Of a stretch of DNA of 59,061 nt, positions 25,089-42,600 are shown piece after piece (within the stretch, counting starts at the first letter, position 1; every line of letters begins with the position of its first letter). Location of the stretch: assembly GCA_019239415.1 (NCBI GenBank), contig JAFAZW010000064.1, positions 1 through 59,061 of the forward strand, given 5' to 3'. Below the pieces are notes generated by a model. It ran no database searches. It was given only the letters and a program-made list of their open reading frames with translations, and had not been told where the DNA came from. Origin of the DNA: Alphaproteobacteria bacterium. Its GTDB lineage: Bacteria > Pseudomonadota > Alphaproteobacteria > Sphingomonadales > Sphingomonadaceae. A program made the position numbers and the translations under genes.

Positions 25089-25140
25089 CCTCATCCTCCA
25101 CCGGCTCCCCGCGGGAGAGCCACGCCGCCGGCGCGCGTTG

Positions 25141-25989: not shown

Positions 25990-26003
25990 GGAAACCGGTG
26001 TCA
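25990..26003. promoter_or_regulatory. LacI-type operator, site A
   Basis: GGAAACCGGTGTCA; the reverse strand reads TGACACCGGTTTCC. It lies 43 bp upstream of the hydratase-like gene and 46 bp past the end of kdgA. The half TGACACCGGT is shared by all six sites of the locus. Confidence 0.65.
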
Positions 26004-26048
26004 TAAGCAACCGCGCCAAATGCCTTGGTGCGCCACTTTCGCCACCTT

Positions 26049-26669
26049 TCAAAGCCTCGGTCGCAGCCCCGCCGCCGCCCGCGCCCGCGCGCGGATCGCC
26101 GCCGGGTCGATCGCGCCGGGCGGCACCAGCCAGCTTCCGCCGACGCACGCCACCGACGGCAGCTTCAGCCAGTCGGGCGCCGTCTCCGCGCTGATCCCGC
26201 CGGTCGGGCAGAAGCGCACGCCGGCGAACACGGCGCCGAAGCCTTTCAGCGCCGCAATGCCTCCGGAGGCCACGGCGGGAAAGAATTTGAGCCGCGTGAA
26301 GCCATGGTCCAGCGCCCGCATGATCTCGCTCGCCGTCGCGACCCCCGGCAACAGCGGCACCCTCGCCGCCTTCGCGGCCGCCGCCAGCGGGTCGCTGAGG
26401 CCGGGGCTGACGATGAACTCCGCCCCCGCCTCCCGCGCGGCGTCGAACTGGCGCGGGTCGAGCACCGTCCCGGCGCCGACGATCGCCCCCTCCACCGCCT
26501 TCATCGCCCGGATGGCGCCGAGCGCGGCGGACGTCCGCAACGTCACCTCGAGCACCGGCAGCCCGCCGTCGACCAGTGCTTGCGCGACCGGCACCGCATC
26601 CTCCAATCGATCGATCACCAGCACCGGGATGACCGGCGCGGCGGCCATGATCGCATCGAGGTCACGCAT
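26049..26669 (-). CDS. kdgA: 2-keto-3-deoxy-6-phosphogluconate aldolase
   Basis: 206 residues, the usual length. Class I aldolase that splits KDPG to pyruvate and glyceraldehyde 3-phosphate. The Schiff-base lysine is Lys128 in TRLKFFPA; the catalytic Glu is in VLEVTLRTSAAL; the phosphate-binding FCPTGGISAETAPDWL follows. It is the last step of the uronate route and also of the Entner-Doudoroff pathway. The start overlaps the stop of the 64-codon frame between it and uxaA, which suggests translational coupling in one uxaA-kdgA transcript controlled by site B. Confidence 0.95.
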   Translation of the reverse strand: MRDLDAIMAAAPVIPVLVIDRLEDAVPVAQALVDGGLPVLEVTLRTSAALGAIRAMKAVEGAIVGAGTVLDPRQFDAAREAGAEFIVSPGLSDPLAAAAKAARVPLLPGVATASEIMRALDHGFTRLKFFPAVASGGIAALKGFGAVFAGVRFCPTGGISAETAPDWLKLPSVACVGGSWLVPPGAIDPAAIRARARAAAGLRPRL

Positions 26670-26856
26670 GCCGCGGCTCCTCGGCGACCGCCGCGCCGGG
26701 GTCAAGCCCCCGGCCGCGCCGGGGCCCGGCGACGACATCGCCAAAGCGCCTGTCCTCGCCGCGCCGCGCGGGAAACACCTGCCGCAGCGCGAGCAGCGCC
26801 GCGACCGGATCGTCGCAGCCGCGGGGGCCGAAATGGACGATGCCGGTGCCGCTCAC
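26662..26856 (-). pseudogene. Short coupled frame between uxaA and kdgA, possible uxuB remnant
   Basis: 64 codons starting at a GTG that overlaps the uxaA stop (GTGA) and ending at a TGA inside the first codons of kdgA (ATGCGTGA). The beginning, GTGIVHFGP, looks like the nucleotide-binding start of mannitol dehydrogenase or fructuronate reductase (UxuB), which usually reads GIVHFGxGAFHR. The rest (RGCDDPVAALLALRQVFPA, then an Arg/Gly-rich tail) does not. It could be a decayed uxuB left after deletion, a small coupling peptide, or chance. Confidence 0.3.
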
Positions 26857-28370
26857 AGCGTCACACCGCGCTTCCAGATCGCGATTTCGCGCTCGTCGTT
26901 GCGCTCCGCCGCGGTCGTCTCGCCCGAGCCGACGGCGGCCATCTTCGCGGCGAGTGCATCGGCGGCGGGTTCCATGCCCTCGTCGAGCACCTGCCCGGCG
27001 TCGAAATCGATCCAGCCCCGCTTGCGCTGCGCGAGGTCGCTGTTCGAGGCGATCTTCACGGTGGGCACGGGAAAGCCGAGCGGCGTGCCGCGGCCGGTCG
27101 TGAACAGGATCAAGGTCGCCCCCGCCGCCGCGAGCGCGGTCGAGGAAACGGCGTCGTTCCCCGGCGCCTCGAGCAGGGTAAGGCCCCGCCGCCGCACCCG
27201 TTCGCCGTAGCGCAGCACGTCCTCGACGGGCGCGTGCCCGGCCTTCTGGACGGCGCCCAGCGACTTCTCCTCGAGCGTCGTGATGCCGCCGGCCAGGTTG
27301 CCCGGCGAGGGATTCTCCGACACCGGCTCGCCATGAGCGAGGAAGTAGCGCTTGAAGTCGTCGACAACGGCGACGACCGCCTCGAACACGCTGCGGTCCC
27401 GCGCCCGCGCCATCAGCAGCCGCTCGGCGCCGAATAGCTCCGGGATCTCGCTGAGGATCGCACTGCCGCCGGCGGCGACGACGCGGTCCGCCATGCGGCC
27501 GACGAGCGGGTTCGCGGTGAGGCCGGAGAAGCCGTCGGAGCCGCCGCATTTGAGGCCGACGACCAGTTCGCCGAAGCCGGCCGCCGCGCGCCTGGCGGGG
27601 GACGCCTGCTCGACGAGGCGGTCGACCAGGGCGAGGCCCTCCTCCAGCTCGTCCTCCACCCCTTGGGCGCGCAGCGAGCGGACCCGGTGCCGCAGCGGCT
27701 CCGGTATCTCCTCGATGAGCCGGTCGAGCTGGTTCGACTCGCAGCCGAGGCCGACGAACAGCACGCCGCCGGCATTGGGGTGCGAGGCGAGCGCGGCGAG
27801 GACGGCGCGCGTGCCGCCGAGGTCGTCGCCGAGCTGCGAGCAGCCGAACGGGTGCGCGAAGGCATGGACTCCGTCCACCGCGCCGGCGTGGCGGGCATCG
27901 GCGAGCGCCGCGATCTTTTGCGCCGTGCGGCCGACGCAGCCGACGGTCGGCAGGATCCAGATCTCGTTGCGCGTCCCGACCCGGCCGTCGGGACGCCGAT
28001 AGCCGAGGAAGGAAGGCGCCGGCGCCGCGATCGGCCGCTCCGCGGCGAGCGGCTCGTAGGAATAGCCCTCGACGCCGGCCAGGAGCGTGGCGAGGTTGTG
28101 GGTGTGGACATGCGCCCCCGCGGGCACGGCCGCGGTCAGCCTGCCGATCGGCCAGCCGAACTTCCGCACGGTCTCGCCGGCGGCCATGTCCCGCAGCGCA
28201 AGCTTGTGACCGTTCGGCACCGGCTCCCGCGCCTCGATCGCGTCCCCGCCCGCCTCCACCCACTCGCCGGCGCCGATCGCTCGGAGCGCCACGGCGACGT
28301 CGTCGCGCGGGTCGAGCCGGAGCAGCGCGCGCCTGTCGGCGGCAAGATCGAGGGGTATTGCTTGTGTCAT
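26853..28370 (-). CDS. uxaA: Altronate dehydratase (UxaA family)
   Basis: 505 residues. Dehydrates D-altronate to 2-keto-3-deoxygluconate. It has both parts of UxaA: an N-terminal SAF-like domain (LALRDMAAGETVRKFGWPIG, with HVHTHNLAT) and the large C-terminal catalytic domain (FLGYRRPDGRVGTRNEIWI, VGLGCESNQ, LKCGGSDGFSGLTANPLVG). The annotated ATG at 28370 lies only two bases from operator B, leaving no room for a ribosome site. Either the mRNA is leaderless or a different start is used (for example GTG at 28397). Divergent from the LacI-family gene. Confidence 0.93.
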   Translation of the reverse strand: MTQAIPLDLAADRRALLRLDPRDDVAVALRAIGAGEWVEAGGDAIEAREPVPNGHKLALRDMAAGETVRKFGWPIGRLTAAVPAGAHVHTHNLATLLAGVEGYSYEPLAAERPIAAPAPSFLGYRRPDGRVGTRNEIWILPTVGCVGRTAQKIAALADARHAGAVDGVHAFAHPFGCSQLGDDLGGTRAVLAALASHPNAGGVLFVGLGCESNQLDRLIEEIPEPLRHRVRSLRAQGVEDELEEGLALVDRLVEQASPARRAAAGFGELVVGLKCGGSDGFSGLTANPLVGRMADRVVAAGGSAILSEIPELFGAERLLMARARDRSVFEAVVAVVDDFKRYFLAHGEPVSENPSPGNLAGGITTLEEKSLGAVQKAGHAPVEDVLRYGERVRRRGLTLLEAPGNDAVSSTALAAAGATLILFTTGRGTPLGFPVPTVKIASNSDLAQRKRGWIDFDAGQVLDEGMEPAADALAAKMAAVGSGETTAAERNDEREIAIWKRGVTL

Positions 28371-28372
28371 CT

Positions 28373-28386
28373 GGTAACCGGTGTCA
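28373..28386. promoter_or_regulatory. LacI-type operator, site B (uxaA / regulator divergent region)
   Basis: GGTAACCGGTGTCA (reverse: TGACACCGGTTACC). The reverse strand has TTGACA overlapping the left half, a possible -35 box. It is 2 bp from the uxaA start and 87 bp before the regulator start, so it could control both and give autoregulation. Confidence 0.7.
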
Positions 28387-28473
28387 AATACTCTCACGCG
28401 GCGGCCGGGGCAAGGCCGCCGGGCTATCGCCGTGCCGCGGCGTGCGATATCGAGCGGTGCAAGGGAGAACAGG

Positions 28474-29532
28474 GTGAGCGAGGCAGAAGAGCCGCCGGCG
28501 CAGGGGAGCCGCCGCACGGGGAAGCCGACGATCAACGACGTCGCGCGGCTCTCCGGCGTCTCGAAGAAGACGGTGAGCCGCGTCATCAACCGCTCGCCCT
28601 TGCTCAACGACGAGACGCGCCGACGGGTCGAGACGGTCATCCGCGAGCTCGGCTATGTGCCGAACCCGCAGGCGCGGGCACTGGCGCTGCGCACCAACTT
28701 CCTGATCGGCCTGATCCACGACAATCCCAACGCCCAGATGGTGCTCAACGTCCAGCAGGGCATTCTCGAGGCCCTGCAAGGGACCGATTTCGCGATGGTC
28801 GTCCGCCCCGTCGACCGCGGTGCGGCGACGCTGATGGACGACATACGCTCGTTCCTCGAGCGGCAGCGGCCCTATGGCGTCGTCATCCTGCCGCCGCTCA
28901 GCGAGAACGACGCCATCGCGCGGCTGTGCGACGAACTCGGCTGCCGCTACGTACGCATGGGATCGGCCGAGCTCGACGATGCCGAGCACATGGTCGCTTC
29001 GAACGACCGCGAGGCCGTCGCCGAGGCGGTCCAGTTCCTCTACACCTCCGGACACAAGCTGATCGGCCTTATCGCCGGACCGCACGGCTTCCGCTCGGCG
29101 GCCGAGCGCCGCCGCGGCTTCGAGGACGCGCTGCGCAGCGCCTCGCTGAAGCTGCCGCGCAGCCTGATCGCGGAGGGCAATTACACGTTCGAATCGGGCA
29201 TTGCCGCGGCCGAGAAGCTGCTCGACCTCAGTCCGCGACCCACCGCCATCTTCGCCAGCAACGACGAGATGGCCGCCGGCGTCATCCACGCCGCGCGGGC
29301 GCGCGATATCGCCGTGCCGGAGGAGCTCTCGGTCATCGGCTTCGACGATACGCCGATCGCCAGCCACATCTGGCCGCCGCTCACCACGGTGCGCTGGCCG
29401 ATCGTCTCGATGGCGCGCTCGGCCGCGCTCAAGCTTCTCGCCGGCCAGGGCCGCGGCGAGGAGGCGGAACCCTCCCTCTTCCTGTCGCGCCTCGTCCGCC
29501 GTGCCTCCGTCGCGTTCGCGCCACAGGGATGA
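28474..29532 (+). CDS. LacI-family transcriptional regulator of the uronate locus
   Basis: 352 residues from the GTG at 28474, which has GGGAG a few bases upstream. The N-terminal helix-turn-helix and hinge are textbook LacI: TINDVARLSGVSKKTVSRVI (about residues 19-38), then RELGYVPNPQARAL. The sugar-binding domain follows: FLIGLIHDNPNAQMVLNVQQ, TAIFASNDEMAAGVIHAA, LSVIGFDDTPIA. By position and by the shared palindromic sites around it, it probably represses uxaA-kdgA, kduI-kduD-kdgK, the receptor and the large exported protein until a pathway intermediate such as KDG binds. The effector is inferred. Confidence 0.92.
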   Translation: MSEAEEPPAQGSRRTGKPTINDVARLSGVSKKTVSRVINRSPLLNDETRRRVETVIRELGYVPNPQARALALRTNFLIGLIHDNPNAQMVLNVQQGILEALQGTDFAMVVRPVDRGAATLMDDIRSFLERQRPYGVVILPPLSENDAIARLCDELGCRYVRMGSAELDDAEHMVASNDREAVAEAVQFLYTSGHKLIGLIAGPHGFRSAAERRRGFEDALRSASLKLPRSLIAEGNYTFESGIAAAEKLLDLSPRPTAIFASNDEMAAGVIHAARARDIAVPEELSVIGFDDTPIASHIWPPLTTVRWPIVSMARSAALKLLAGQGRGEEAEPSLFLSRLVRRASVAFAPQG

Positions 29533-29550
29533 CGCCCTTGCATCGACGCA

Positions 29551-29564
29551 TGACACCGGTTACC
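29551..29564. promoter_or_regulatory. LacI-type operator, site C (kduI operon)
   Basis: TGACACCGGTTACC, 101 bp before the preferred kduI start at 29665 and 62 bp before the alternative ATG at 29626. It lies between the regulator stop and the kduI operon. Confidence 0.7.
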
Positions 29565-29664
29565 GGCATGAAAGGAGCGGCGCGGGAGATGGCCGCCGCG
29601 AGAGGCGTTTAGGCCTGCCGCCTCGATGAACCGCACAACCTTGCAGCCTGACGGAGCCTTCCCG

Positions 29665-30504
29665 ATGTACGATCGCACCTACTACGCCACGCATCCCGAC
29701 ATGATGGAGTGCGTCTCGAACGAGGAGCTCAGGGACCGCTACCTGATCCAGGGCCTGTTCCGCGACGGCAAATGCGTGCTGAACTACACCCACGCCGACC
29801 GCTTCGTGATCGGCGGCGTCGTCGTCGCCGGCGGCGAGGTGCGGCTGCCGGACCAGACGGAGCCCGCTGCCGCCGCCGGTCATCCGTTCCTCGAGCGGCG
29901 CGAGCTCGCCGTGGTCAATGTCGGCAAGGCGGCGGGGACGGTCACCGTGGACGGGGAGGCGTTCGCGCTCGGCAGCAAGGACTGCCTCTACGTCACCATG
30001 GGCGCGAAGGACGTGATCTTCTCCGGCGAGGGCGCCCGCTTCTACCTCGCCTCCTGCCCCGCGCATCAGGCGTTCCGTACGCGCAAGCTGGAAATCGCGC
30101 AGGCCAATGCCCTGGAGCGCGGCAGCCTCGAGGAGTCGAACGAACGCACGATCTACCAGCTGGTCATCCCCGGCGTCTGCGATTCGGCGCAGCTGGTCAT
30201 GGGCCTCACCGTGCTGAAGCCGGGCTCGGTCTGGAACACGATGCCGCCGCACATCCACGAGCGGCGCAGCGAAATCTATTTCTACTTCGAGCTCGACGGC
30301 GAGAGCGACCGGGTGTTCCACTTCATGGGCGAAGGCGAGCAGCTCCGCCATATCGTCATGGCCAATGAGGAAGCGGTGATCAGCCCGGTCTGGTCGGTCC
30401 ACATGGGCGCCGGCACCAAGGCCTATGCCTTCATCTGGGCGATGGCCGGCGAGAATCAGGACTATACCGACATGAACGTCCTCGACATCTGCCAGCTGCA
30501 GTGA
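29665..30504 (+). CDS. kduI: 5-dehydro-4-deoxy-D-glucuronate isomerase
   Basis: 279 residues from the ATG at 29665, which has GGAG 8 bases upstream and gives the E. coli KduI length. An ATG at 29626 adds 13 residues and has no ribosome site. Converts 5-keto-4-deoxyuronate, the spontaneous product of unsaturated uronate, to 2,5-diketo-3-deoxygluconate. The zinc-binding cupin residues are visible in [15 protein letters not shown] (His, His, Glu) and [11 protein letters not shown] (His). It is the first gene of the kduI-kduD-kdgK-esterase operon. Confidence 0.96.
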
Positions 30505-30512
30505 ACCACCAC

Positions 30513-30593
30513 CGTCAGCCCGGACTCGATCCGGGATCCATCTTCTTCCCGGGTGCCATGGAGAAGCTGGATTCCGGCTTTCGCCGGAATGAC
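30513..30593. repeat. Intergenic repeat between kduI and kduD
   Basis: GTCAGCCCGGACTCGATCCG at one end and CCGGCTTTCGCCGGAATGAC at the other give two hairpins (CCCGGACTCGATCCGGG and ATTCCGGCTTTCGCCGGAAT). A type widespread in sphingomonads, here inserted inside an operon. Confidence 0.75.
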
Positions 30594-30610
30594 GAGAGAG
30601 CGGAGTGCGA

Positions 30611-31366
30611 ATGACCCACCCCTTCGACCTCACCGGCCGCGTCGCCCTGGTTACCGGCGCCAATACGGGCATCGGCCGGGCCATCGCCGTCGCGCTCGCC
30701 GAGGCCGGCGCCGACGTCGCCCTCGTCGGCCGCTCGCCCGCCGACGAAACCGCGGCGGCGGTCGCGGCCGCCGGTCGCCGGTCGATCCAGGTCCGTGCCG
30801 ACCTTGCCACCATCGCGCCGGTGCAGGACGTGGTCGACCGCACGCTGGCCGAGCTCGACGGCCTCGACATCCTCGTCAACAATGCGGGGATCATCCGCCG
30901 CGCCGATGCCGTCGACTTCTCCGAAGCGGATTGGGACGCGGTGGTCGACACCAACCTCAAGTCGGTCTTCTTCCTGTGCCAGGCGGCGGGTCGGCAGATG
31001 ATCGCGAAAGGACGCGGCAAGATCGTCAACATCGCCTCGCTGCTGAGCTTCCAGGGCGGCATCCGCGTGCCGAGCTACACCGCCTCGAAATCCGGCGTCG
31101 CCGGGCTTACGAAGCTCCTCGCGAACGAATGGGCCGCGAAGGGAGTCAATGTGAACGCGATCGCGCCGGGCTACATCGCCACCAACAACACCGCCGCGCT
31201 TCAGGCGGACGAGACCCGCAACCGGCAGATCGTCGAGCGCATACCCGCCGGCCGTTGGGGCGCGCCTGCCGATCTCGGCGGCGCCGCCGTCTTCCTCGCG
31301 TCGGCCGCGTCCGATTACGTCAACGGCCACATCCTTGCCGTCGACGGCGGGTGGCTGGCGCGATGA
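30611..31366 (+). CDS. kduD: 2-dehydro-3-deoxy-D-gluconate 5-dehydrogenase
   Basis: 251 residues, the family length. SDR that reduces 2,5-diketo-3-deoxygluconate to KDG with NAD(P)H. Motifs: ALVTGANTGIGRAIAVALA, ILVNNAGIIRRADAVDFSEA (the 'IIRR' after NNAG is typical of KduD), IVNIASLLSFQGGIRVPSY, and the active site Y-TASK. The start at 30611 follows GGAG. It overlaps the kdgK start by ATGA, so translation is coupled. Confidence 0.95.
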   Translation: MTHPFDLTGRVALVTGANTGIGRAIAVALAEAGADVALVGRSPADETAAAVAAAGRRSIQVRADLATIAPVQDVVDRTLAELDGLDILVNNAGIIRRADAVDFSEADWDAVVDTNLKSVFFLCQAAGRQMIAKGRGKIVNIASLLSFQGGIRVPSYTASKSGVAGLTKLLANEWAAKGVNVNAIAPGYIATNNTAALQADETRNRQIVERIPAGRWGAPADLGGAAVFLASAASDYVNGHILAVDGGWLAR

Positions 31367-32367
31367 CCGTCGCCTGCTTCGGCGAGATCCTGCTGCGCAT
31401 GACCGCGCCGGGGCGCGAGCTGATGCTGCAGAAGCCCCACCTCGACGTCTATGTCGCCGGCGCCGAGGCGAATGTCGGGGTCGGGCTCGCCAATCTCGGC
31501 CACCGGGTGAAGATGGTCAGCCGGCTTCCCGACAACGCGCTCGGCCAGGCGGCGCTCGACGCGGTCCGGCGGCACGGCGTGGACGTCTCGGCGGTGACCC
31601 GGACGGCGGGCCGCATGGGCCTCTACTTCCTGACCCAGGGCGCCGGCCTGCGCGCCTCGGAAATCTTCTACGACCGCAAGGACAGCGCCTTCGCCAAAGC
31701 GGGGCCCGAGGATTTCGATTGGCCCGGCCTGCTCGAGGGGGTCGAGCTCCTCCACCTCTCCGGCATCACGCCGGCGCTCGGACCGCGCTCGGCGGAGGCA
31801 GCGATCGCCGCCGCCGAAGCCGCCGCCGCGCGCGGCATCGCCGTGTCGTTCGACGGCAATTACCGCGCGCAGCTCTGGGAGAGCTGGGACAGCGATCCGA
31901 AGGGCGTGCTGACCCGGCTCGTTTCGAAGGCGACGATCCTGTTCGGCAACCACCGCGACATCTCGCTCCTCCTCGGCCGCAACTTCGGCGGCGGCGGCGC
32001 GGATCGGCGTCGCGAAGCGGCGGAAGCCGCCTTCCGCGCGTTCCCGAACCTGAAGCGCATCGCGTCGACCGCCCGCCACGTCGAGGACGCCGACCGCCAC
32101 CGCATATCCGCGCGAATCGACGAGCCGATCACGAGCGTGCAGACCGAGGAAGTGCTGGTCGCCGGCATCGTCGACCGGATCGGCGCGGGCGACGCCTTCG
32201 CCGCGGGCGTGCTCCACGGCGTGCTCGGCGGCCGCGATCTCGACCGGACGGTGCGCTCCGGCCTCGCGCTGACCTGCCTCAAGCATTCGCTGCCGGGGGA
32301 CTTCAGCCTGTTCGGGCCCGGCGACATCGAGGCCTTCCTGGCAGGCGGCTTCGACGTCCGGCGGTGA
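31363..32367 (+). CDS. kdgK: 2-keto-3-deoxygluconate kinase (PfkB family)
   Basis: 334 residues. PfkB/ribokinase fold: AGAEANVGVGLANLGHRVKM near the N terminus, and the C-terminal signature IVDRIGAGDAFAAGVLHG with the catalytic Asp and anion hole. Phosphorylates KDG to KDPG, the substrate of KdgA. The function is assigned from fold plus its place between kduD and an esterase; other PfkB sugar kinases look similar. The ATG overlaps the kduD stop, and the next gene overlaps its own stop by GTGA. Confidence 0.88.
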   Translation: MTVACFGEILLRMTAPGRELMLQKPHLDVYVAGAEANVGVGLANLGHRVKMVSRLPDNALGQAALDAVRRHGVDVSAVTRTAGRMGLYFLTQGAGLRASEIFYDRKDSAFAKAGPEDFDWPGLLEGVELLHLSGITPALGPRSAEAAIAAAEAAAARGIAVSFDGNYRAQLWESWDSDPKGVLTRLVSKATILFGNHRDISLLLGRNFGGGGADRRREAAEAAFRAFPNLKRIASTARHVEDADRHRISARIDEPITSVQTEEVLVAGIVDRIGAGDAFAAGVLHGVLGGRDLDRTVRSGLALTCLKHSLPGDFSLFGPGDIEAFLAGGFDVRR

Positions 32368-33899
32368 TCGACCGCCGGGCCTTCCTCGTCGCCGCCGGCG
32401 CCGCCGCCGCGACGCCGGCTTTCGCGCAGGGCGATCCGCTCGTGCCGACCACCCTCGGCCCGGTCCGCGGCTCCCGCGAGGACGGACTCTGCGTCTTCCG
32501 CGGCATACGCTACGGCCTGGCGCCGCGCTTCCGGGCACCGTCCGCGCCGCCATTCTCCCGCGACGCGGTCGCCGCCACGGCCTTCGGTCCGTCCTGCCCG
32601 CAACGCAACGGCCGCTACCGGGCGACGAGCGAGGATTGCCTCTTCCTCAACGTCTGGACGCCCGACGCGCGGCCCGGCGCGCGTCGGCCGGTGACGGTCT
32701 ATATCCACGGCGGCGCCTATTCGACCGGCTCGGTGGTCGATCCGCTCAACGATGGCCGGCACCTGGCTCGGCACGGCGACGCCGTGGTCGTCACCGTCAA
32801 CCACCGGCTGAACGTCTTCGGTTATCTCTATCTCGCCCGGCTCGACCCGCGCTTTCCGGACAGCGGCAATGCCGGGCAGCTCGACCTCATCCTGGCGCTG
32901 GACTGGGTGCGCCGGAACATCGCCGCGTTCGGCGGCGACCCGGCGCGGGTCCTGGTCTTCGGCCAGTCGGGCGGCGGCGCGAAGATCGCGACATTGATGG
33001 GGATGCCGGCGGCGAGGGACCGCTTCCACCGCGCGATCACGATGAGCGGCCAGCAGGTCACCGCCTCCGGCCCCCTTAACGCCACCGCGCGGGCGCGGGC
33101 CTATCTCGCGGCGCTGAAGGCAACCCCCGCCGATCTCGTCGCGATGCCGGCGGAACGGCTGGTCGATGGGCTTGCCGCCACCGATCCGATCCTCGGCGGC
33201 GGCGTCTACATGGGTCCCGTTCTCGACATGAAGTGGCTGGTCCGCCACCCCTTCTGGCCCGACGCGAATCCCCAGTCGAACGCGATCCCGATGATGCTCG
33301 GCAACACGCGGGACGAGACCCGCGCCTTCATCGACCCCGACAGCGAGAAGGTCCGCACCCTCGGCTGGGACAATCTCGCCGAGCGGATCGCCCCCGAGCT
33401 GCGCGTCGACATCGCCCCGGAATGGGTGGTGGAGCAATATCGCCGCCGCTTCCCCTCCTGGTCGCCGGAGCGGATCTTCTACGCGGCGACGACCGCGGGG
33501 CGGAGCTGGCCCGGCCAGGTCATCGAAGCCGACGCGCGGGCGGCGGCCCGCACCCGCACCTGGGTCTACCAGGTCGATTTCCAGTCGCCGACCCAGCCGA
33601 GGCGCGGCGCGCCGCACACGATGGACATCGCCCTTGCCTTCGGGACGCTGGGGGCGGAGGGCTCCTACACTGGAACCGGCCCCGAAGCCCGCGCGGTCAG
33701 CCGCCGGATGATGGACGCATTCACCGCCTTCGCGCGCACCGGCGATCCGAACGCGACCGGCCTTCCCCACTGGCCGGTCTATGCGCTGCCCGAGCGGGCG
33801 ACGATGATCTTCGACGTCGCGACCCGCGCGCAAGACGACCCGCGGCGCTGGGAGCGCGAGCTGTTCGCCCGCATACCCTACATCCAGCCCGGCAGCTGA
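32364..33899 (+). CDS. Exported type-B carboxylesterase
   Basis: 511 residues from a GTG overlapping the kdgK stop. The N terminus (DRRAFLVAAGAAAATPAFAQ) is a Tat-like or Sec signal peptide. Carboxylesterase type B features: FRGIRYGLA, SEDCLFLNVWTPD, YIHGGAYSTGS (oxyanion hole), VFGQSGGGAKIATLM with the nucleophile Ser near residue 202, and the catalytic His probably in GAPHTMDIALAFG. Its strict coupling to kdgK suggests it removes methyl, acetyl or feruloyl groups from the uronate polymer; the exact ester is not known. Confidence 0.85.
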   Translation: MIDRRAFLVAAGAAAATPAFAQGDPLVPTTLGPVRGSREDGLCVFRGIRYGLAPRFRAPSAPPFSRDAVAATAFGPSCPQRNGRYRATSEDCLFLNVWTPDARPGARRPVTVYIHGGAYSTGSVVDPLNDGRHLARHGDAVVVTVNHRLNVFGYLYLARLDPRFPDSGNAGQLDLILALDWVRRNIAAFGGDPARVLVFGQSGGGAKIATLMGMPAARDRFHRAITMSGQQVTASGPLNATARARAYLAALKATPADLVAMPAERLVDGLAATDPILGGGVYMGPVLDMKWLVRHPFWPDANPQSNAIPMMLGNTRDETRAFIDPDSEKVRTLGWDNLAERIAPELRVDIAPEWVVEQYRRRFPSWSPERIFYAATTAGRSWPGQVIEADARAAARTRTWVYQVDFQSPTQPRRGAPHTMDIALAFGTLGAEGSYTGTGPEARAVSRRMMDAFTAFARTGDPNATGLPHWPVYALPERATMIFDVATRAQDDPRRWERELFARIPYIQPGS

Positions 33900-33948
33900 G
33901 CTGGCGCACCTGCGCTTGACACCGGGCGCAGTCGGAGCCAGAAGCTTA

Positions 33949-33962
33949 TGACACCGGTTACT
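33949..33962. promoter_or_regulatory. LacI-type operator, site D (upstream of the TonB receptor)
   Basis: TGACACCGGTTACT. A partial copy, TGACACCGGGCGCA, lies at 33917-33930. With site E it brackets a terminator-like element. Confidence 0.65.
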
Positions 33963-34021
33963 CAAGGAGCCGGAGCGGGCGACTCGGCAGACATGGCGGA
34001 GCGCCCCCGAGGAGGAGGTCG

Positions 34022-34076
34022 GCCGCGCCGCAACGCGCATTCCGCACCCTCCTTGCGCGGCTCGGCCGGGTTTTTT
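34022..34076 (+). terminator. Possible terminator between site D and site E
   Basis: GCCGCGC (34022-34028) pairs exactly with GCGCGGC (34055-34061), and a smaller CGGC-TCG-GCCG hairpin follows. TTTTTT runs at 34071-34076. The long spacing between the main stem and the T-run weakens it. It could end the kdu operon or act as a leader attenuator for transcripts starting near site D. Confidence 0.35.
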
Positions 34077-34087
34077 GGCGCCGGTTT

Positions 34088-34101
34088 AGACACCGGTGTC
34101 A
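34088..34101. promoter_or_regulatory. LacI-type operator, site E (TonB receptor)
   Basis: AGACACCGGTGTCA, the most symmetric site (13 of 14 bases palindromic to consensus). It lies 46 bp before the receptor start. Confidence 0.7.
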
Positions 34102-34146
34102 CTGGCTTTTGTCCCGCCGCGAACGCGGCAACAGGAGGGGATGGAA

Positions 34147-37134
34147 ATGGGTACTCGTCTGGCTTCGCTCCGTCAGTCCCGCGGCGGCCGCTACCTCGCC
34201 GCGGCGTCGCTCGGCGCCCTCGCGCTCGCCCTCGCGGTGCCGGCCTCGGCGCAGAGCGCGCAGGCGCCGCAGAACCCGCCGCCCGCACCGGCGCCCGCGC
34301 CGGGCGTGCCGAGCGCCGCCGCGCCGGCCGACCGGGCCGTGACGACCATCGACCAGCCCGGCACGCCGCAGGCGGGGGCCAGCGCAGATCAGCCCGCGGA
34401 CGAAGGCGCGATCGTCGTCACCGGCTTCCGCAGCAGCCTGGCGCGCGCGCTCAACATGAAGAAGCTCGAGAATGCGGCGACCGATTCGATCCTCGCCGAG
34501 GACATCGGCAAGTTCCCCGACCTGAACCTCTCCGAGTCGATCCAGCGCATTCCCGGCGTCGCCCTCCAGCGCGACGGTGGCGAGGGGCGGCAGATCACCG
34601 TGCGCGGCCTCGGCCCCCAGTTCACCCGTGTCCGCATCAACGGCATGGAGGCGCTGACCACCGCCGGCGGCGCCGACGCGTCGGGCGGCACCAACCGCAG
34701 CCGTTCGTTCGACTTCAACGTCTTCGCCTCGGACCTCTTCAACGCCATCACCCTGCGCAAGACGGCCGAGGCTTCGGTCGAGGAAGGATCGCTCGGCGCC
34801 ACGGTCGACCTGCGCACCGCGCGTCCCTTCGATTACAAGGGCTTCACCCTCACCGCCTCGCTGCAGGGCGACTATAACGACCTTTCGAAGAAGGTGACGC
34901 CGCGCGGCGCCATCCTCGTTTCCGATATCTTCGCCAACGGCACGCTCGGCGCCCTCGTGTCGGTCGCCTACACCAAGCGTCAGCTGATCGAGGAGGGGCC
35001 GAGCACGGTGCGCTGGGCGCCGGCGACGAGCTTCGCCCCCGGCTTCCAGAGCGTCGGCGGGGTGACCTGCCTCAACGCCGCCGGCAGCGCGGCGCTCAGC
35101 CCGGCACCGGGCGATTGCGGCACCGTCGATGCCGCGCAGCATCCCCGCTTCCCGCGCCAGGACTGGTATTATGACGACCAGCAGCGGCTCGGCGTCACCG
35201 CCTCGCTGCAGTGGAAGCCGTCCGAGAACACCCTGATCAGCCTCGACGGCCTCTACGCCGACTTCAAGGGCACGCGCGAGGAGCGCTATCTGGAGGCGCC
35301 CTCGTTCAGCGTCGGCGGCGCCTGCACCAACGCCAACCGCGCCACCAGCTGCGGCATCGCCGACACCGAGGTGACCAACTACCAGATCACCAACGGGGTC
35401 ATGTACAAGGGCACGTTCAACGACGTGGACCTGCGCGTCGAGGACCGCTTCGACCGCCTCGACACCAAGTTCCAGCAGCTGACCCTCGACGGCATGCAGA
35501 AGTTCGGGGAGCACGTCACCCTGACCTTCACGGGCGGCCATTCGACCTCGAAGCACCGCAACCCCGTCCAGAACACGCTGACCTTCGACCAGTATAATGT
35601 CGACAATTACAGCTACGACTACGGCTCGCCGAGCGGTCGCAGCCCGATCTTCAATTTCGGCACCGCCAACCTCACCGACCCCAATTCCTGGGTGCTGTCG
35701 CAGATCCGCCTGCGCGCGGCGACGGCCGACAACCGCTTCGACAACGCCCAGGCGGCGCTCAACTGGAAGCTGAGCGACGATTTCCAGATCGATTTCGGCG
35801 GCGAGTGGAAGAAGTACAAATTCTCCACCACCGAGCTTCGGCGCCAGAACGCCGCCAGCCCGAGCACGAACCAGGAAACCACCATTCCCGCCGCCATCGC
35901 CGCGATGGGTGTCGGCGGGCTCGGCCATGTCGTCACCGTCGGCGGCTACACCTTCTTCGCCCCCGATTACGCCGGGGCCGACGCCCAGCTCCATTTCGGC
36001 GACCCGACCGCCTTCGGCGGCGCCTTCGCGCTGGGGCCGGGGCCGGCGCTGGGCAACAACGCGACGGTGCGGGAGCGCGATCAGGGCGGCTTCGTCCAGG
36101 CCAGCTTCCACCACGACTTCGGCAGCATGGTGCTGCGCGGCAATGTCGGCGTGCGCTATGTCGAAACCCGCACCGCCTCGACCGGCTACGCGATCGTCAA
36201 CAACGCGATCAACCAGATCACGGTGAACAGCAGCTATCACGACTGGCTGCCCTCGGCGAACGTCGTCTTCGAGCCCGTCCGCAACTTCGACATCCGGTTC
36301 GCCGCGGCGAAGGTCATGTCGCGGCCGAGCCTCGGCAGCCTCAACCCCGGCGCGACGATCAACGTTTCCGGCGCCAACCGCACGGTCTCGGGCGGCAATC
36401 CGTTCCTGCAGCCGTTCCGGGCGAACAGCTACGACCTCGCCTTCGAATGGTATTTCCAGCCCGGCGCCCTGCTGTCGGTCGCCTTGTTCGAGAAGGATGT
36501 CGGGAGCTTCATCACCACGCTGCAGAGCCGCGGCGTCTTCTCGACCAATCCGTTCGGGCTGCCGACCAGCCTGATGACGGCCGCCTGCGGCAATCTCGCC
36601 GGCTGCGACGCGACCACCATCTTCACGTTCAGCTCGCCGGCCAACACGCCGGGCGGCCCGGTCAAGGGCTTCGAGGTCAATTACCAGCAGCCGTTCAAAT
36701 TCCTGCCGGGCTTCCTCAGCCACACCGGCGTCCTGCTCAACTACACGGGCGTCAAGTCGAAGATCAAATATCTGAACGCCGCCGGCGCCGTCGTCGCCGT
36801 CAACGACCTCACCCAGCTGTCGCGCAAGTCCGCCAACGCCACTCTCTATTACGAGGACAGCAAGCTGAGCGCCCGCGTCTCCGCCTCCTATCGCAGCGGC
36901 TATCTGACCCAGATCCCGGCGGCGGAAGCGGGGAACGACGTGCAGGGGACGAACAGCACCCTCAACGTCGATGCCTCGATCCAGTACACGATCAACCGGC
37001 ATTTCAAGGTGACGCTCGAAGGGATCAACCTCACCGACGAGCACCAAGACCAATATGTCGACAGCCGCGACATGCTGTCGGTCTACCACCATACCGGCCG
37101 CGAGCTGCTGTTCGGCGTCCGCTACACCTTCTGA
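34147..37134 (+). CDS. TonB-dependent receptor of the uronate locus
   Basis: 995 residues; AGGAGG lies 8 bases before the ATG at 34147, while the ATG at 34141 is too close. Signal peptide (YLAAASLGALALALAVPASAQ) and a Pro/Ala-rich linker, then the plug domain: IVVTGFRSSLARAL, DIGKFPDLNLSESIQRIPGV, ITVRGLGPQFTRVRINGM. The barrel ends with a terminal Phe (LLFGVRYTF), as outer-membrane proteins do. The plug belongs to the large sugar-type receptors common in Caulobacter, Xanthomonas and sphingomonads. Probably takes up oligogalacturonides or similar oligo-uronates, inferred from context and operators D and E. Confidence 0.93.
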   Translation: MGTRLASLRQSRGGRYLAAASLGALALALAVPASAQSAQAPQNPPPAPAPAPGVPSAAAPADRAVTTIDQPGTPQAGASADQPADEGAIVVTGFRSSLARALNMKKLENAATDSILAEDIGKFPDLNLSESIQRIPGVALQRDGGEGRQITVRGLGPQFTRVRINGMEALTTAGGADASGGTNRSRSFDFNVFASDLFNAITLRKTAEASVEEGSLGATVDLRTARPFDYKGFTLTASLQGDYNDLSKKVTPRGAILVSDIFANGTLGALVSVAYTKRQLIEEGPSTVRWAPATSFAPGFQSVGGVTCLNAAGSAALSPAPGDCGTVDAAQHPRFPRQDWYYDDQQRLGVTASLQWKPSENTLISLDGLYADFKGTREERYLEAPSFSVGGACTNANRATSCGIADTEVTNYQITNGVMYKGTFNDVDLRVEDRFDRLDTKFQQLTLDGMQKFGEHVTLTFTGGHSTSKHRNPVQNTLTFDQYNVDNYSYDYGSPSGRSPIFNFGTANLTDPNSWVLSQIRLRAATADNRFDNAQAALNWKLSDDFQIDFGGEWKKYKFSTTELRRQNAASPSTNQETTIPAAIAAMGVGGLGHVVTVGGYTFFAPDYAGADAQLHFGDPTAFGGAFALGPGPALGNNATVRERDQGGFVQASFHHDFGSMVLRGNVGVRYVETRTASTGYAIVNNAINQITVNSSYHDWLPSANVVFEPVRNFDIRFAAAKVMSRPSLGSLNPGATINVSGANRTVSGGNPFLQPFRANSYDLAFEWYFQPGALLSVALFEKDVGSFITTLQSRGVFSTNPFGLPTSLMTAACGNLAGCDATTIFTFSSPANTPGGPVKGFEVNYQQPFKFLPGFLSHTGVLLNYTGVKSKIKYLNAAGAVVAVNDLTQLSRKSANATLYYEDSKLSARVSASYRSGYLTQIPAAEAGNDVQGTNSTLNVDASIQYTINRHFKVTLEGINLTDEHQDQYVDSRDMLSVYHHTGRELLFGVRYTF

Positions 37135-37148
37135 CCGGGGCGGCGGAG

Positions 37149-38111
37149 ATGGAGATCGACCGCCGCACCGCCTTGCTCGGCAGCCTCGCCGCCGCCGGTT
37201 TCGCGAGCCGCGCGGCGGGGCAGCCACCCCAGCCGGCCGAGACGATCGAACTCTGGCCGCGCGGCGCGCCGGGCATGCCCGCGAAACCGCCGGTCGAGCG
37301 GATCGACGAGCGCTCGCAGGATCCGGGCTTTCACGACCGCGCCGTCCTGGGCATCGCGCGCCCACGCATGACCGTGTTCCGCCCCGCACGGCCGAACGGC
37401 GCGGCGGTGCTGATCATGCCCGGCGGCGGCTATTCCTGGGTGGTGGTCGACAAGGAGGGCAACGAGCTCGGCGCCTGGCTGGCGGCGCGCGGCGTCACCG
37501 CCTTCGTGCTCTTCTACCGCCTCCCCGGGGAGGGCTGGGCGGCGGGTCCGGACACGCCGCTCCAGGATGCGCAGCGGGCGATGCGGCTGATCCGCGCCCG
37601 CGCCGAGGCCTACCGCCTCGACCCGGCGCGGGTGGCGGCGATGGGCTTCTCCGCCGGCGGCCACCTGTGCGCCGACCTCGCGACCCGCTTCGCGGCGCCC
37701 GTCTACCAGCCGACCGACACCGCGGACGCGCTCTCCGCGCGCCCCGTCGCGGCGGCGCCGATCTACCCCGTCATCGCGATGACGGCGCCGCTCGCCCATC
37801 CCGGCTCGCGCCGCAACCTCGTGGGCGAGCATGCCTCCGCCGAGCGGGAACGCGCGCATTCGCCGCATCTCGCCGTCACCGCCGACACGCCGCCCTGCTT
37901 CCTCCTCCACGCCGAGGACGACAATGTCGTACCGGTCGAGAACAGCCTCCTCTTGCGCGCAGCGCTGCGGGCGCGGGGCGTGCCGGTCGAGACCCACCTC
38001 TTCCCCGACGGCGGTCACGGCTTCGGCCTGCGCCTCGCCAGAGGGAGGAGCGTGGAAGGCTGGCAGGAGCTGTTCTGGGCCTGGGGCGCGAAGCGGCGCC
38101 TCTTCGCCTGA
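37149..38111 (+). CDS. Exported alpha/beta hydrolase (acetylesterase-like)
   Basis: 320 residues, 14 bp after the receptor stop. Twin-arginine-like signal (DRRTALLGSLAAAGFASRAA). Alpha/beta-hydrolase landmarks: VLIMPGGGYSWVVVDKEGNE (oxyanion loop), AAMGFSAGGHLCADLA (nucleophile Ser), HAEDDNVVPVENS (Asp) and DGGHGFGLRL (His). This is the layout of bacterial carbohydrate acetylesterase-like proteins that often accompany xylan and pectin loci. In this operon it probably deacetylates the imported or surface-bound polymer. Confidence 0.8.
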   Translation: MEIDRRTALLGSLAAAGFASRAAGQPPQPAETIELWPRGAPGMPAKPPVERIDERSQDPGFHDRAVLGIARPRMTVFRPARPNGAAVLIMPGGGYSWVVVDKEGNELGAWLAARGVTAFVLFYRLPGEGWAAGPDTPLQDAQRAMRLIRARAEAYRLDPARVAAMGFSAGGHLCADLATRFAAPVYQPTDTADALSARPVAAAPIYPVIAMTAPLAHPGSRRNLVGEHASAERERAHSPHLAVTADTPPCFLLHAEDDNVVPVENSLLLRAALRARGVPVETHLFPDGGHGFGLRLARGRSVEGWQELFWAWGAKRRLFA

Positions 38112-38115
38112 CCGG

Positions 38116-39606
38116 TCAGGTGACGGCGCGCAGCGCCTCGACCGACAGCGGTCCGCGGTTCAGCACGGCGTCGTGGAACGCCCGCATCGCGGCCGGCCCC
38201 GTGCGCCGCTTCGCGAGCTCGGCAAGGGTCAGCGCCGCGACCGCGTCGCCGGCGAAGCCCGCCGGTTCCGCCGCATAGCGGTCCACCTCGACCGCGAACG
38301 GGAAGAACAGCTCGAAGCCGACCGTCTCCGTAAGGTAGGCGACGGCGCGGGCGCGGCTCCAGCGGTGGACATGGATGCCGATGTCGGCGGCGACCCGCGC
38401 CAGGCGGAACAGCCAGGATTGCAGGAAGCCGATCTGCTCGACGGGAGTGAAGATCCCCATCCGGTCGGCGAGGCTCTCCGCATAGATCGCCCAGCCCTCC
38501 TCGTAACCGACGGCGTAGCGGGCCTGCAGCGCGTGCGGCTTCGCGACCGCCTCGCGGCGCAGCTGGAGCATGTGGCCGGGAATGGTTTCGTGACAGGCGA
38601 CGGTCGCGAGGGTCCAGCCGGGACGTTCGCGGGCATCGGCCAGGTCCGGATAATAGGTGCCGGTGGCGGGATCCCGGTAGCCGCGCTTCCCCGCCGTCTC
38701 GTCCGCCGCGCGCATCCTGGTCACATGCGCGCCGGCTTCGATGGGCGGGTTGAACCAGGCCGCGAGCCGTGGGCGCACCCGGTCCAACACCGCATTCATG
38801 TCGGCGACGGCGCGGGCGCGGCCGGCATCGTCGTTGGCGTAAAGATGTTCCGGTCGCTGCTTCAGCGCCCTGAGGCGCGCGCCGACGCTGCCGCGCGAGA
38901 GGCCCAGCCGCTCCAGCAGCGCGTCGGCGCGGCGGGTGAGGGCGGCGATCTCCGCGCGGACGAGGCGGTCCAGGCCGAGGGGCGTGAGGTCGGTTCCGGT
39001 CGTGCAGCGCAGCCGCAGGGCATAATAACCGGGCCCGCCGGGAAACTGCCAGACGCCCGGCTCCCGCGGCGCCCGGGCGCGGAGGGAGGCGAGGACGTCC
39101 AGCTCCCGCGCGACCGCGGCGGGAGCATTCGTGGGGTACCGGGCCCTGAGTCCCTCCCGCGCCGCGTCGAGCATGAAGAGGGGCGGGACGATGCCGCGTG
39201 CCGCTTCGGCGCGCAGTCGCTCGGCCTCCATCTCGAGCGGGTGGAAGCGGAAGGCGGGATCGCCCGGTCCGTCCTCGATCTCGAGCCAGACGCCGTGGCG
39301 ATGGCTGATCACGTAGGGCGAGGCGCCGAGGCGCTTGCCATAGGGGAAAGCCGTCTCCAGCGCCGCGGCGCGCTCGAGGCCGCGCACGACCATGCGCAGG
39401 ATCGCGGCGTCGCTCCCGGTATCGGCGATCCCGCCCGCGGCCAGGCGGCGAAGCATTTCGGGATAATCCGGCCATGCCTGCAGCGCGTGGTCGAACAGCG
39501 TCGTCAGCGCCGGGGACGCCGCCGATGCCGCCGCCGTCGGCAGCAGCAATGCCGCGGCCGAACCGACCATGAAAGCCCGCCGGGTGACGTCGCGATCCTG
39601 CCTCAC
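38116..39606 (-). CDS. DUF885 family exported metallopeptidase-like protein
   Basis: 496 residues from a GTG at 39606. The N terminus RDVTRRAFMVGSAAALLLPT is a good Tat signal. The DUF885 signature CHETIPGHMLQ puts HExxPGH at His339, Glu340 and His345, a zincin-like metal site, with the family's GYEEGWAIYAESLADRMG about 30 residues later. DUF885 proteins are presumed peptidases or dipeptidases. TTGACA overlaps operator F, and TACAAA stands 18 bp downstream, so transcription would begin about at the GTG: a possible leaderless mRNA. Divergent from the large LamG protein gene, with one operator between them. Its link to uronates is unexplained. Confidence 0.8.
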   Translation of the reverse strand: MRQDRDVTRRAFMVGSAAALLLPTAAASAASPALTTLFDHALQAWPDYPEMLRRLAAGGIADTGSDAAILRMVVRGLERAAALETAFPYGKRLGASPYVISHRHGVWLEIEDGPGDPAFRFHPLEMEAERLRAEAARGIVPPLFMLDAAREGLRARYPTNAPAAVARELDVLASLRARAPREPGVWQFPGGPGYYALRLRCTTGTDLTPLGLDRLVRAEIAALTRRADALLERLGLSRGSVGARLRALKQRPEHLYANDDAGRARAVADMNAVLDRVRPRLAAWFNPPIEAGAHVTRMRAADETAGKRGYRDPATGTYYPDLADARERPGWTLATVACHETIPGHMLQLRREAVAKPHALQARYAVGYEEGWAIYAESLADRMGIFTPVEQIGFLQSWLFRLARVAADIGIHVHRWSRARAVAYLTETVGFELFFPFAVEVDRYAAEPAGFAGDAVAALTLAELAKRRTGPAAMRAFHDAVLNRGPLSVEALRAVT

Positions 39607-39627
39607 AGACGCTTTGTACGACGCCGT

Positions 39628-39641
39628 TGATACCGGTGTCA
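39628..39641. promoter_or_regulatory. LacI-type operator, site F (divergent DUF885 / LamG protein promoter)
   Basis: TGATACCGGTGTCA (reverse TGACACCGGTATCA). It stands midway between the two divergent starts (39606 and 39682). The minus-strand copy contains TTGACA as a -35 box with TACAAA 18 bp further. Confidence 0.7.
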
Positions 39642-39681: not shown

Positions 39682-42600
39682 ATGCGGCTGAACCTGTGGC
39701 TGAGCGGAACGGCGGCGGTGGCGGCACTGCTCGTCACGGGCGCGGCGGGGGCGGCGGCGCCGGCCGGCGGGGTCGGAGCGCTCGCTCCGGCCGGGGCGCC
39801 GAAGCTCCTCTTCCGCCTCTCCGCGGACAAGGGCTTCGTCGCCGACACCGCCGGCGGCGATCCGGTGCCGAACTTCCAGGACAAAGTGCGCATCGTACCC
39901 ACCGGCGTCGGCGGCGGCGGCGCGATCCAGTGGGACGATGACGGCGTCGTCACCTGGAATGCGCCGGGCAACATCTTCGCCCAGCGCGGCACATTGGCCT
40001 TCTTCTGGCGCGCGCGGACGCCGGTCGGCGAGGCGCCGTTCAACATCTTCCGCGTCGGCTTCGCCGATCACACGAGCTGGGACATGGCCTGGCTGCGCAT
40101 CGACTGGAACGGCCACGGCTTCGACGCCTTCGTCACCGACGCCAACCTCGCCCGCACCCGTGTCGCCTGGCGCATGCCGGCCGCGCCGGAACCGGACGCA
40201 TGGCACCACATCGCCTTTTCATGGGACGAGACCGAAGGCGTGCGCCTCTACGTCGACGGCCGCGAGGCGGCGCGCAAGGTCGTCAAGGCCGATTACGATA
40301 GCGGGCTCGACCAGTTCGGTCTCGCCGGACGGGTGGTGTCGCCGCACCAGGTGCAGAGCCGCTACCATTTCATGCGCGGCAGCGACGTCGACGAGATCCG
40401 CGTCTACGACCGCATGCTGGCTGCCGGCGACGTAGCGGCGCTCGCCGCTCAGCGCGAGCCTGCCGCGGCGGCGGAACCCGCAGGCGCGGCGAAGCGCGCG
40501 GCGTGGCTGCACCGCTTCGGCTGGGACCGCGCCAGCCCGCCCGTGCTGGCGGCGCCCTCGACCCGTGTCCGCAAGGTGGAGTTCGCCGACGCCAGGGACC
40601 TCAAGCAGTGGATGTTCAAGGGCGTCGACGGCATCGAGGAGACGACCTGGCCCGGCGTCTACAACCGCTCCCGCCTGCCCGGCCGCGACGATTATTTCGA
40701 GCTCCCCGACTGGAACGTGTATGTCGAGGGCGGCAAGACCTACGACCTCACCCTCCCGGCGGGCGAAACGGTGAACCGCGTCGAGATACGCGGCGCCGCC
40801 TATGGCGAGCTTTCCTGGTCGGCGGACGGCAAGGCGTACCGGACGCTGGCCCACCGCCCGGAGGGCGTGGTGCGCAGCGTCGAGGCGCTGCCGCCGCTCG
40901 CCGGCGGCAGGCTCCGCTTCACCAACGTGGCGCAGGAGACGCCGATCCAGGAGCTCTGGGCCTATCGCGTCACAGACGGGAAGGAGCCCGAAGGGACGCT
41001 GAAGCTCTCCTACACGGTCAATCCCGACGCGGCGCCGGCCTACGCGAATCTCGCCGGTCTCAACGCGTTCATCGCCGGTCGCTACCCGGAGGACGAGCGG
41101 GAAACGGTGCTCGCGCTTCCGGCCGGCGCTTCGGCGGGACGCGCGGCGGCCGCCGCCGGCGACCCGACCGCGACCGGCCGGGTCGAGCGCCGGTCCGGCA
41201 GCGCGCCGCTCGTCCACATCCTGATCCCCTCCGGCTTCGGCGACGCCCTGCCCGCGCGCGCGCCGACGCGGTCCTGGAATTATGGGTGGGAGAATGTCCA
41301 TGACGGCCTCGACGGCGTCGCCATCGACATCCCGCCGCTCCACGCGACGCCGAATGCCGAAGGGGTCATCCCGCTCGACATCCGGGTCAAGGACCCGATC
41401 TGGCCGCTGCGGGACCTGATCGACGTCTCCGTCTCCGTCCGCCCCGGCGAGGCGCGCACGCTCTGGCTCGACACGCGCGACCGCATCCTCACCGACGACA
41501 GCCTCTATTTGACCATCGCCTCGGCGGCGCCGGATTTCGGCCCGGCCTCGCTCAAGGGGATGAACATCCGGCTCGTCTTCAAGGACCGCGAGGCGGCCAA
41601 GGCCGAGCACGTCGCCGATCGCTTCAACCAGGTGAAGGACAATTGGGGCTTCCTCGTCGAGGAGCATACGGCCTCGAAGCGCGAGGCGCTCTACCGCCGG
41701 CTCTACGCCGACATTTCCGACCTTCTGCGGGTCGACCCGGACCACCGCCTGGCCCGCGAATATTGGGCGGACATCGGCTATAACGCGCAGGGGCCGTTGC
41801 CCTTCACCCAGCCGGCGCCGCCGCCCGGGGTGCCGCTCTGGGCGTTCCGCCAGCTCGAGGACCTGAAGCTCGTCCGTCGGTTCGTGAACTGGTGGATCGA
41901 CGAGCGGCAGGTGCCTTACGGCGATTTCGGCGGCGGCATTTCCGACGATGTCGACCTCACCGAGCAATGGCCCGGCCTCGCCCTGATGGGGGTCGACCCG
42001 GACAAGATCAACGCGTCGCTGCGGGCGCTGTCGGACGCCGTCTACAAGAACGGAATGCGAACGAACGGCCTCGGCACCATCACCACCGACGAGCTTCACG
42101 CCTATGAGGAAGGCCTGAACTCGGACGCCGAGCGGCTCTACCTCAACTGGGGCGAGCCCAAGGCGATCGAGCGGCTGATGGACACGGTGCGGGCGCTGCA
42201 GGGGATCATCCTGGCCAATCCCGCCGGGCACATGCACTTCGCGTCCAACTGGTATGGCGGGCGCAAGGTCTACCGGGAAGGACCGTGGGAATGGCAGAAA
42301 CCCTATTCCTTCACCGTCCTCCACGCGCCGATCCTCATCGGCACCTACAATGGCAATGCGGCGGCGCGGCGCCTCGTCACCGGCACGATCGACGGCTGGC
42401 TGGCGCACGGCAAGCAGGGGCCGGACGGCCGCTGGTCCTTCCCGAACGAGATCAATTGGCGGACCGACGCCGAGCGGGTCGGCGATCGCGGCGGCGTCTC
42501 GACGCCGCTGCAGGGCGCCTGGGCCGCCTACCGCTGGACCGGGGACGCGAAATATCTGCGGCCGCTCGAGGGGCGGGCGGCGGAATCGCCGGCGATCCTC

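Follow-up and report, generated by a model that had tools for sequence, protein, structure and literature searches.

A predicted local LacI-family uronate regulon in a sphingomonad, with a conserved operator that is commonly mixed and mostly oriented

In the passages drawn on here from the LacI-family survey of Ravcheev et al. (2014, PMC4052901), motifs are described as palindromes and palindromic motifs were searched for; the ExuR, KdgR, UxaR and UxuR groups of that survey control glucuronate- and galacturonate-type genes through palindromic sites with a central CG, located ahead of operons as well as of the regulator's own gene. PtxS of Pseudomonas, as presented in the sections of PMC5902321 used for comparison, is a LacI-family protein that responds to 2-ketogluconate and has a perfectly palindromic operator, TGAAACCGGTTTCA, near the -10 box. 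The SuxR and TonB-receptor carbohydrate-utilization (CUT) loci of Xanthomonas combine a LacI/GalR repressor with a TonB-dependent receptor and an MFS transporter for sucrose, according to the portion of PMC1790865 considered, and lac O1 of E. coli is an asymmetric natural operator of a LacI-family repressor (PMC2978694, in the part concerned with half-sites). Here we describe a locus in a 59,061-nucleotide stretch (hereafter the window; contig JAFAZW010000064.1 of assembly GCA_019239415.1, a member of the Sphingomonadaceae), in which a LacI-family gene at 28474-29532 lies amid six sites with the core ACCGGTGTCA. Judging from gene content and site placement, its product is very probably the local repressor of a pectin- or oligogalacturonide-type uronate locus, acting at predicted operators that are asymmetric in function. 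Compared by function, the locus resembles the four hexuronate groups and shares their central CG and site placement, yet its commonest operator is mixed and oriented where theirs are palindromic. With PtxS it has in common the ACCGGT core, the protein family, a site near the -10 box and, in the mechanism proposed below, a sugar acid as effector; that likeness is judged on operator, family and effector, and the pathway differs. Its assembly of repressor, receptor and transporter recalls SuxR, except that uronate takes the place of sucrose.

A local LacI uronate regulon of a known kind is well supported, and the conserved mixed, oriented operator is its unusual part. A prior account of this sphingomonad regulon was not found in the titles and abstracts of the open-access literature searched, a scope outside which supplements and RegPrecise fall, and the stem "Sphingo" does not occur in the main text of PMC4052901; the regulon itself may already be recorded in RegPrecise or in supplements. 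As a regulon, it provides sphingomonads with a control circuit for pectin-type uronates that is clear and open to testing, and it brings several genes about which little is known (LamG, DUF885, esterases, hydratase-like) under predicted shared control. The operator matters more. If it is widely conserved as mixed and oriented, it would be a case of real sites being misdescribed by searches that assume palindromes, and would provide a simple system for asking why a dimeric repressor would need direction.

The sequence-only reading of this stretch had placed six ACCGGTGTCA cores between genes at promoters of the locus, and had taken them for near-palindromic sites of a LacI-type uronate regulon with a LacI-family gene in the middle. 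The cores do lie there, in 14-mers starting at 25990, 28373, 29551, 33949, 34088 and 39628, all intergenic and at the promoters it had named; they are given below with a probable promoter element.

25990..26003, minus strand, predicted operator of the hydratase-like and MFS genes, TGACACCGGTTTCC towards the genes
28373..28386, minus strand, predicted operator of the divergent uxaA-like/regulator region, TGACACCGGTTACC towards uxaA
29551..29564, plus strand, predicted operator of the kduI-kduD-kinase-esterase genes, TGACACCGGTTACC
33916..33921, plus strand, probable -35 box (TTGACA) of the receptor promoter, one of a recurrent TTGA upstream of receptor sites
33949..33962, plus strand, first predicted receptor operator, TGACACCGGTTACT
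34088..34101, plus strand, second predicted receptor operator, AGACACCGGTGTCA, upstream of the receptor ATG
39628..39641, plus strand, predicted operator between the divergent DUF885 and LamG genes, TGATACCGGTGTCA

Six such cores compare with a mean of 0.06 and a maximum of 2 in dinucleotide shuffles, which served as background here; elsewhere the reversed pattern was the control. The central gene does belong to the LacI family, with Pfam domains over cut-off (LacI, 67 bits; Peripla_BP_3, 123.8 bits) and LacI-family relatives in the PDB, and all six sites have the even spacing and central CG of LacI-family operators, the sites in relatives discussed below having been selected by their ACCGGT core in the first place. 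The near-palindromic consensus, in contrast, did not hold up. None of the six equals the perfect palindrome TGACACCGGTGTCA; in coordinate order they differ from it by 2, 3, 3, 3, 1 and 1 bases, so that the sites at 34088 and 39628 are one base off while the remaining four are asymmetric TGACACCGGTTWC[CT]. The exact palindrome occurs neither in the window nor anywhere in the whole genome (G000; 3,488,889 bases, 97% complete, the window being its contig C13). Across that genome, nine exact cores were found against none for the reversed control, and the three beyond the window lie in coding sequence (by eye, ribosomal protein L6, a ParA-like and a YcgN-like gene). When the flanking half is demanded as well (DGWHACCGGTGTCA, derived from the six), the zero-mismatch matches are the six in the window only, and at this stringency the regulon in G000 is a single locus. 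Near-matches on contigs C34 and C66, both inside open reading frames (ORFs), were rejected as further members, as was one on C8 with a changed core and just a short ORF over it. The genome's one match to GGWWACCGGTWWCC, at G000:C51:26511-26524, is the palindrome GGAAACCGGTTTCC.

Regulator orthologues were followed through 149 genomes of the family, with complete per-genome counts. They form a group at 56% identity or more (one of them a partial match) against 44% or less for paralogues and, scored at 276 bits or more with the partial match of G052 included, occur in 43 of the 149 genomes, the window's own counted. Each position of the recognition helix VSKKTVSRVIN is 98-99% identical in 121 aligned sequences, overlapping loci included. 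Around the orthologues, a first set of 40 loci from 39 genomes (794 kb; G121 contributes two, and G025, G052 and G082 have the regulator yet fall outside the set) holds 120 exact cores against none for the reversed control. A second set, comprising the best 80 of 377 loci with named source organisms (1.50 Mb; among them Sphingomonas, Sphingobium, Sphingosinicella, Stakelama and Pelagerythrobacter), holds 247 against one. Pooled, the two overlapping sets give 367 sites against one control match. Removal of the near-duplicates L122, L150, L056, L057 and L060, which the 121-sequence alignment kept, left 115 loci for core typing and later counts.

Comparison of orthologous promoters, one of the checks proposed from the sequence alone, bears out the uronate regulon: many sites recur upstream of FAH, uxaA and receptor genes and between the regulator and kduI/kduD, so that kduI/kduD and uxaA-like promoters carry sites, as do uxaC and eda in some relatives. 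Among 17 ORFs scanned near further sites in relatives, we found three UxaC, one UxaB-type (Mannitol_dh) and two apiosidase-like proteins, and one each of an aldolase, GH1, GH43 and an RpiB-like protein. Moreover, the mixed pattern TGACACCGGTWWCC (139 sites) occurs in 42 of the 43 genomes with the regulator and in 8 of the 106 without it (Fisher p ~1e-27 over 149 genomes, kinship not corrected). The palindrome patterns do not follow the regulator in this way, with 3/43 and 1/106 for TGACACCGGTGTCA (p 0.07) and 10/43 and 17/106 for GGWWACCGGTWWCC (p 0.35). Of the eight, G141 carries sites next to receptor, uxaC and uxaA-like genes; in the other seven, all nine sites lie inside ORFs called by a simple caller. 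As regards kinship, the flanks of the sites are near random (pairwise identity 0.26-0.29), compared with 0.56-0.74 for the variable half. Sphingomonad-type loci were also seen in two records labelled as other bacteria, L171 (titled Bacillus sp. 2B10) and L106 (a Rhodocyclaceae metagenome-assembled genome), with regulator identities of 68% and 75%; both records are probably contamination or misassignment.

The two halves of the operator are unlike each other. In the commonest site one half reads TGACACC and the opposite half GGTTWCC, the palindromic counterparts being TGACACCGGTGTCA and GGTAACCGGTTACC, and among 344 distinct sites the half facing ACCGGTGTCA is most often GG[AT]A. Of 1016 ACCGGT cores typed in the 115 loci, 213 were TGAC/GGWA, one TGAC/TGAC and three GGWA/GGWA, against about 108, 53 and 55, respectively, if the 434 exact halves were paired at random. 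Both halves were one base off TGAC in 25, and cores outside these classes and the two one-base-off classes given below were other or unrelated. The mixed form is thus the commonest, not the sole, operator type; a palindromic operator, the usual trait of the LacI family, is not the common form here, which does not bar family membership. Camas et al. consider three scenarios for two half-site types and, in the part of PMC2978694 concerned, none of them has mostly mixed sites with rare palindromes.

The mixed sites are also mostly oriented. With a [GA]G[AT]A second half and a single candidate target, 104 of 120 sites present TGACACC first towards the gene; a further 74 lie between divergent genes and 53 are without a recognised gene within 500 bp. 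A TTG starts 13 nt upstream of the site in 60 of 359 distinct sites (register I) and 7 nt upstream in 68 (register II), and in both registers the distance from the start of the TTG to a TA is 23 nt, giving a 17-bp spacer. In register I this TA falls inside the second half of the operator (T 93%, A 97%) and in register II two bp past it (T 90%, A 99%). The W base changes accordingly, with an A:T ratio of 58:1 in register I and 4:63 in register II. A third register is probable: 24 sites, of which 16 are receptor sites judging by position, have a TTGA that starts 32-33 nt upstream, and no -10 box was identified for them. All three are represented in the window. The kdu site at 29551, between the LacI stop and kduI, is in register I, with TTGC 13 nt upstream and TACC at the -10 position; the FAH site at 25990, 43 bp upstream of one of the two candidate GTG starts of the hydratase-like gene, is in register II, with TTGC 7 nt upstream and TA two bp past the site; and the receptor site at 33949 begins 33 nt after the start of a TTGACA and falls in register III, likewise with no -10 identified. 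The 28373 site, 2 bp before the uxaA-like ATG, has no TTG at the register I or II offset. A three-mismatch near-match at 33917 was set aside as an extra operator because TTGA recurs at this distance, a -35 TTGACA being the simpler reading, and TGACA itself was rejected as a -35 box since by eye no -10-like conservation stands at the right distance.

From these arrangements a mechanism can be proposed. A regulator dimer would sit on TGACACC|GGTTWCC, its hinge helices placed at the central CG, and when bound would block RNA polymerase. Its release would come from an intermediate of uronate breakdown, for which 2-keto-3-deoxygluconate or an intermediate of the KduI/KduD steps is the likeliest candidate. 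With the TGACACC half upstream and the GGTTWCC half downstream, the operator would be functionally asymmetric, and the identity of W would depend on whether the -10 box has to take its A from the GGTTWCC half. We further suggest, tentatively and at somewhat less than an even chance, that the operator is mixed and polar by design, one subunit reading TGACACC and the other GGTTWCC, with orientation kept across the registers. If so, the repressor-promoter complex would have a direction, and either the dimer would be asymmetric, or a hidden hetero-oligomer would exist, or contact with RNA polymerase would depend on direction.

A number of observations weigh against the main account, whether of the regulon or of the form of its operator. 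Concerning the regulon, in the relative G072 (loci L177-L185) the ACCGGTGTCA core was matched exactly at 44 places and the mixed site at 12, the reversed control at none, and of nine mixed sites read outside its main locus eight lie inside ORFs called by a simple caller and one is intergenic; the objection that equally good sites might occur in unrelated promoters or inside genes is answered for G000, where they are few, and not for this relative. G091 has the regulator and no mixed site. The uxaC gene of G000 is located elsewhere (C90:26700-27989, in L217 and L218), behind a gene read by eye as a GntR/FCD-type regulator, and the 14 kb read there contain no good operator, the best matching 11 of 14 letters. 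Several enzyme-family models in the locus score below cut-off, and the rest of the 17 scanned ORFs were two other oxidoreductases, one weak TSP3 match and four without a family. Since the loci are related, site counts are not independent events, and most of them demanded one exact TGAC half, core typing demanding only ACCGGT. Concerning the operator, two of the six window sites are near-palindromes; in 59 of the 1016 typed cores TGAC faces a half that differs from it by one base, and in 41 it faces one that differs by one base from GGWA. Sixteen mixed single-target sites are reversed (10 receptor, 4 regulator, 2 FAH). Sites with other second halves run 61 forward and 29 reverse, beyond which 15 are divergent, 6 have no gene and 2 lie inside a match. 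Finally, about 230 of the 359 distinct sites have no TTG at the register I or II offset.

On one alternative reading, this is a palindromic operator of the ordinary LacI sort in which the second half has been weakened to tune induction, the asymmetric lac O1 discussed by Camas et al. (PMC2978694, same part) being the model. The 59 one-base-off cores and the two near-palindromes of the window speak for it. Moreover, if positions are independent, 2.7 of 360 variable halves should read TGAC and two rows do, both strands of one site in L090, so no avoidance of palindromes beyond base preferences is needed. The variable half is nonetheless conserved in its own right (G 75%, G 94% and A 74% at three positions; GG[AT]A in 216 of 360), and palindromes of either half are nearly absent from these loci. 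The lac O1 operator has an extra central base. Unlike those of lac O1, the halves here have symmetrical spacing, and conservation of the second half extends over genomes and promoters. We consider a weakened palindrome unlikely, although it deserves to be kept in mind.

It could also be that the promoter forces the asymmetry, the downstream half doubling as the -10 box. This agrees with TACC at the -10 position in register I and with a W base that follows the register (58:1 against 4:63), and promoter overlap does explain W and, within register I, also the second half. It does not explain why the half and its orientation persist in register II, whose TA stands clear of the operator, nor clearly why they do so in register III, at receptor sites 32-33 nt after TTGACA, the latter being the weaker point for want of an identified -10 box. 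The promoter as sole cause is therefore a doubtful explanation, worth considering all the same. Were the regulator paired with a LacI paralogue in a heterodimer, so that each protein read one of the halves, two distinct conserved halves would be accounted for, and many genomes have several LacI-like genes. Yet G009, G042, G051, G082, G130 and G131 have the mixed site with a single regulator match at E<=1e-50, so no close paralogue is shared among them, and palindromes of the second half are not tied to the regulator (10/43 and 17/106 genomes, as above); we regard a heterodimer, which would need a more distant partner, as improbable. That the sites belong to another DNA-binding protein, or to chance, is very improbable indeed, given that the mixed site tracks the regulator (42/43 against 8/106 genomes) and that, by eye, most listed loci have a site flanking the regulator gene on one or both sides.

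Operators also occur in pairs. The two receptor operators of the window lie 139 bp apart, centre to centre, and the second, some 140 bp downstream of the first, would likely act as a roadblock or as a looping partner. Searching distances of 100-260 bp gave 34 receptor pairs, ranging over 108-204 bp with 30 of them at 135-169 bp; these show no helical phasing (best resultant 0.30, p 0.43), and looping between paired receptor operators is possible. In seven loci (L079, L081, L083 and L085-L088), whose order of genes differs, operator pairs stand exactly 22 bp apart, some of them upstream of TonB-dependent receptors. In the passages used from PMC4052901, 22-bp operator spacing is tied to cooperative binding.

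The genes of the locus are as follows.

23802..25094, minus strand, MFS transporter, closest among NCBIfam models to D-galactonate transporter (268.9 bits, short of the cut-off of 395)
25141..25947, minus strand, FAH-superfamily protein, weakly like 2-keto-4-pentenoate hydratase, function uncertain; start at 25947 or 25938
26049..26669, minus strand, KDPG/KHG aldolase (eda), from family searches
26853..28370, minus strand, altronate/galactarate dehydratase family protein (uxaA-like); galactarate dehydratase model below cut-off
28474..29532, plus strand, LacI-family regulator of 352 aa, from its Pfam domains
29665..30504, plus strand, kduI, 5-dehydro-4-deoxy-D-glucuronate isomerase, model over cut-off
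30605..31366, plus strand, kduD, 2-dehydro-3-deoxy-D-gluconate 5-dehydrogenase, TIGR01832 over cut-off
31363..32367, plus strand, PfkB-family sugar kinase; KDG kinases are among its best NCBIfam models, none of which reaches cut-off
32364..33899, plus strand, carboxylesterase-family protein, from a family search
34141..37134, plus strand, TonB-dependent receptor of the TonB-Xanth-Caul subfamily, 688 bits against a cut-off of 310
37149..38111, plus strand, esterase, with pectin acetylesterase PaeX as its top NCBIfam model (302 bits, short of the cut-off of 550)
38116..39606, minus strand, DUF885 protein, from a family search
39682..43527, plus strand, LamG-domain protein of 1281 aa, function unassigned, from a family search

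This gene content fits the use of unsaturated uronates from pectin, and pectin-type uronates would be the likeliest substrate as far as genes can tell. A site at uxaC is present in some relatives, unlike in the 14 kb read in G000. For the LamG protein, a sequence search of the PDB gave no credible relative (E 0.3 or worse); relatives occur in 6 of 118 genomes searched, its own included, and sites stand near it in several relatives. Outside the regulon, the window region 20612-21733 matches the Pfam IgA Peptidase M64 family at 82.6 bits.

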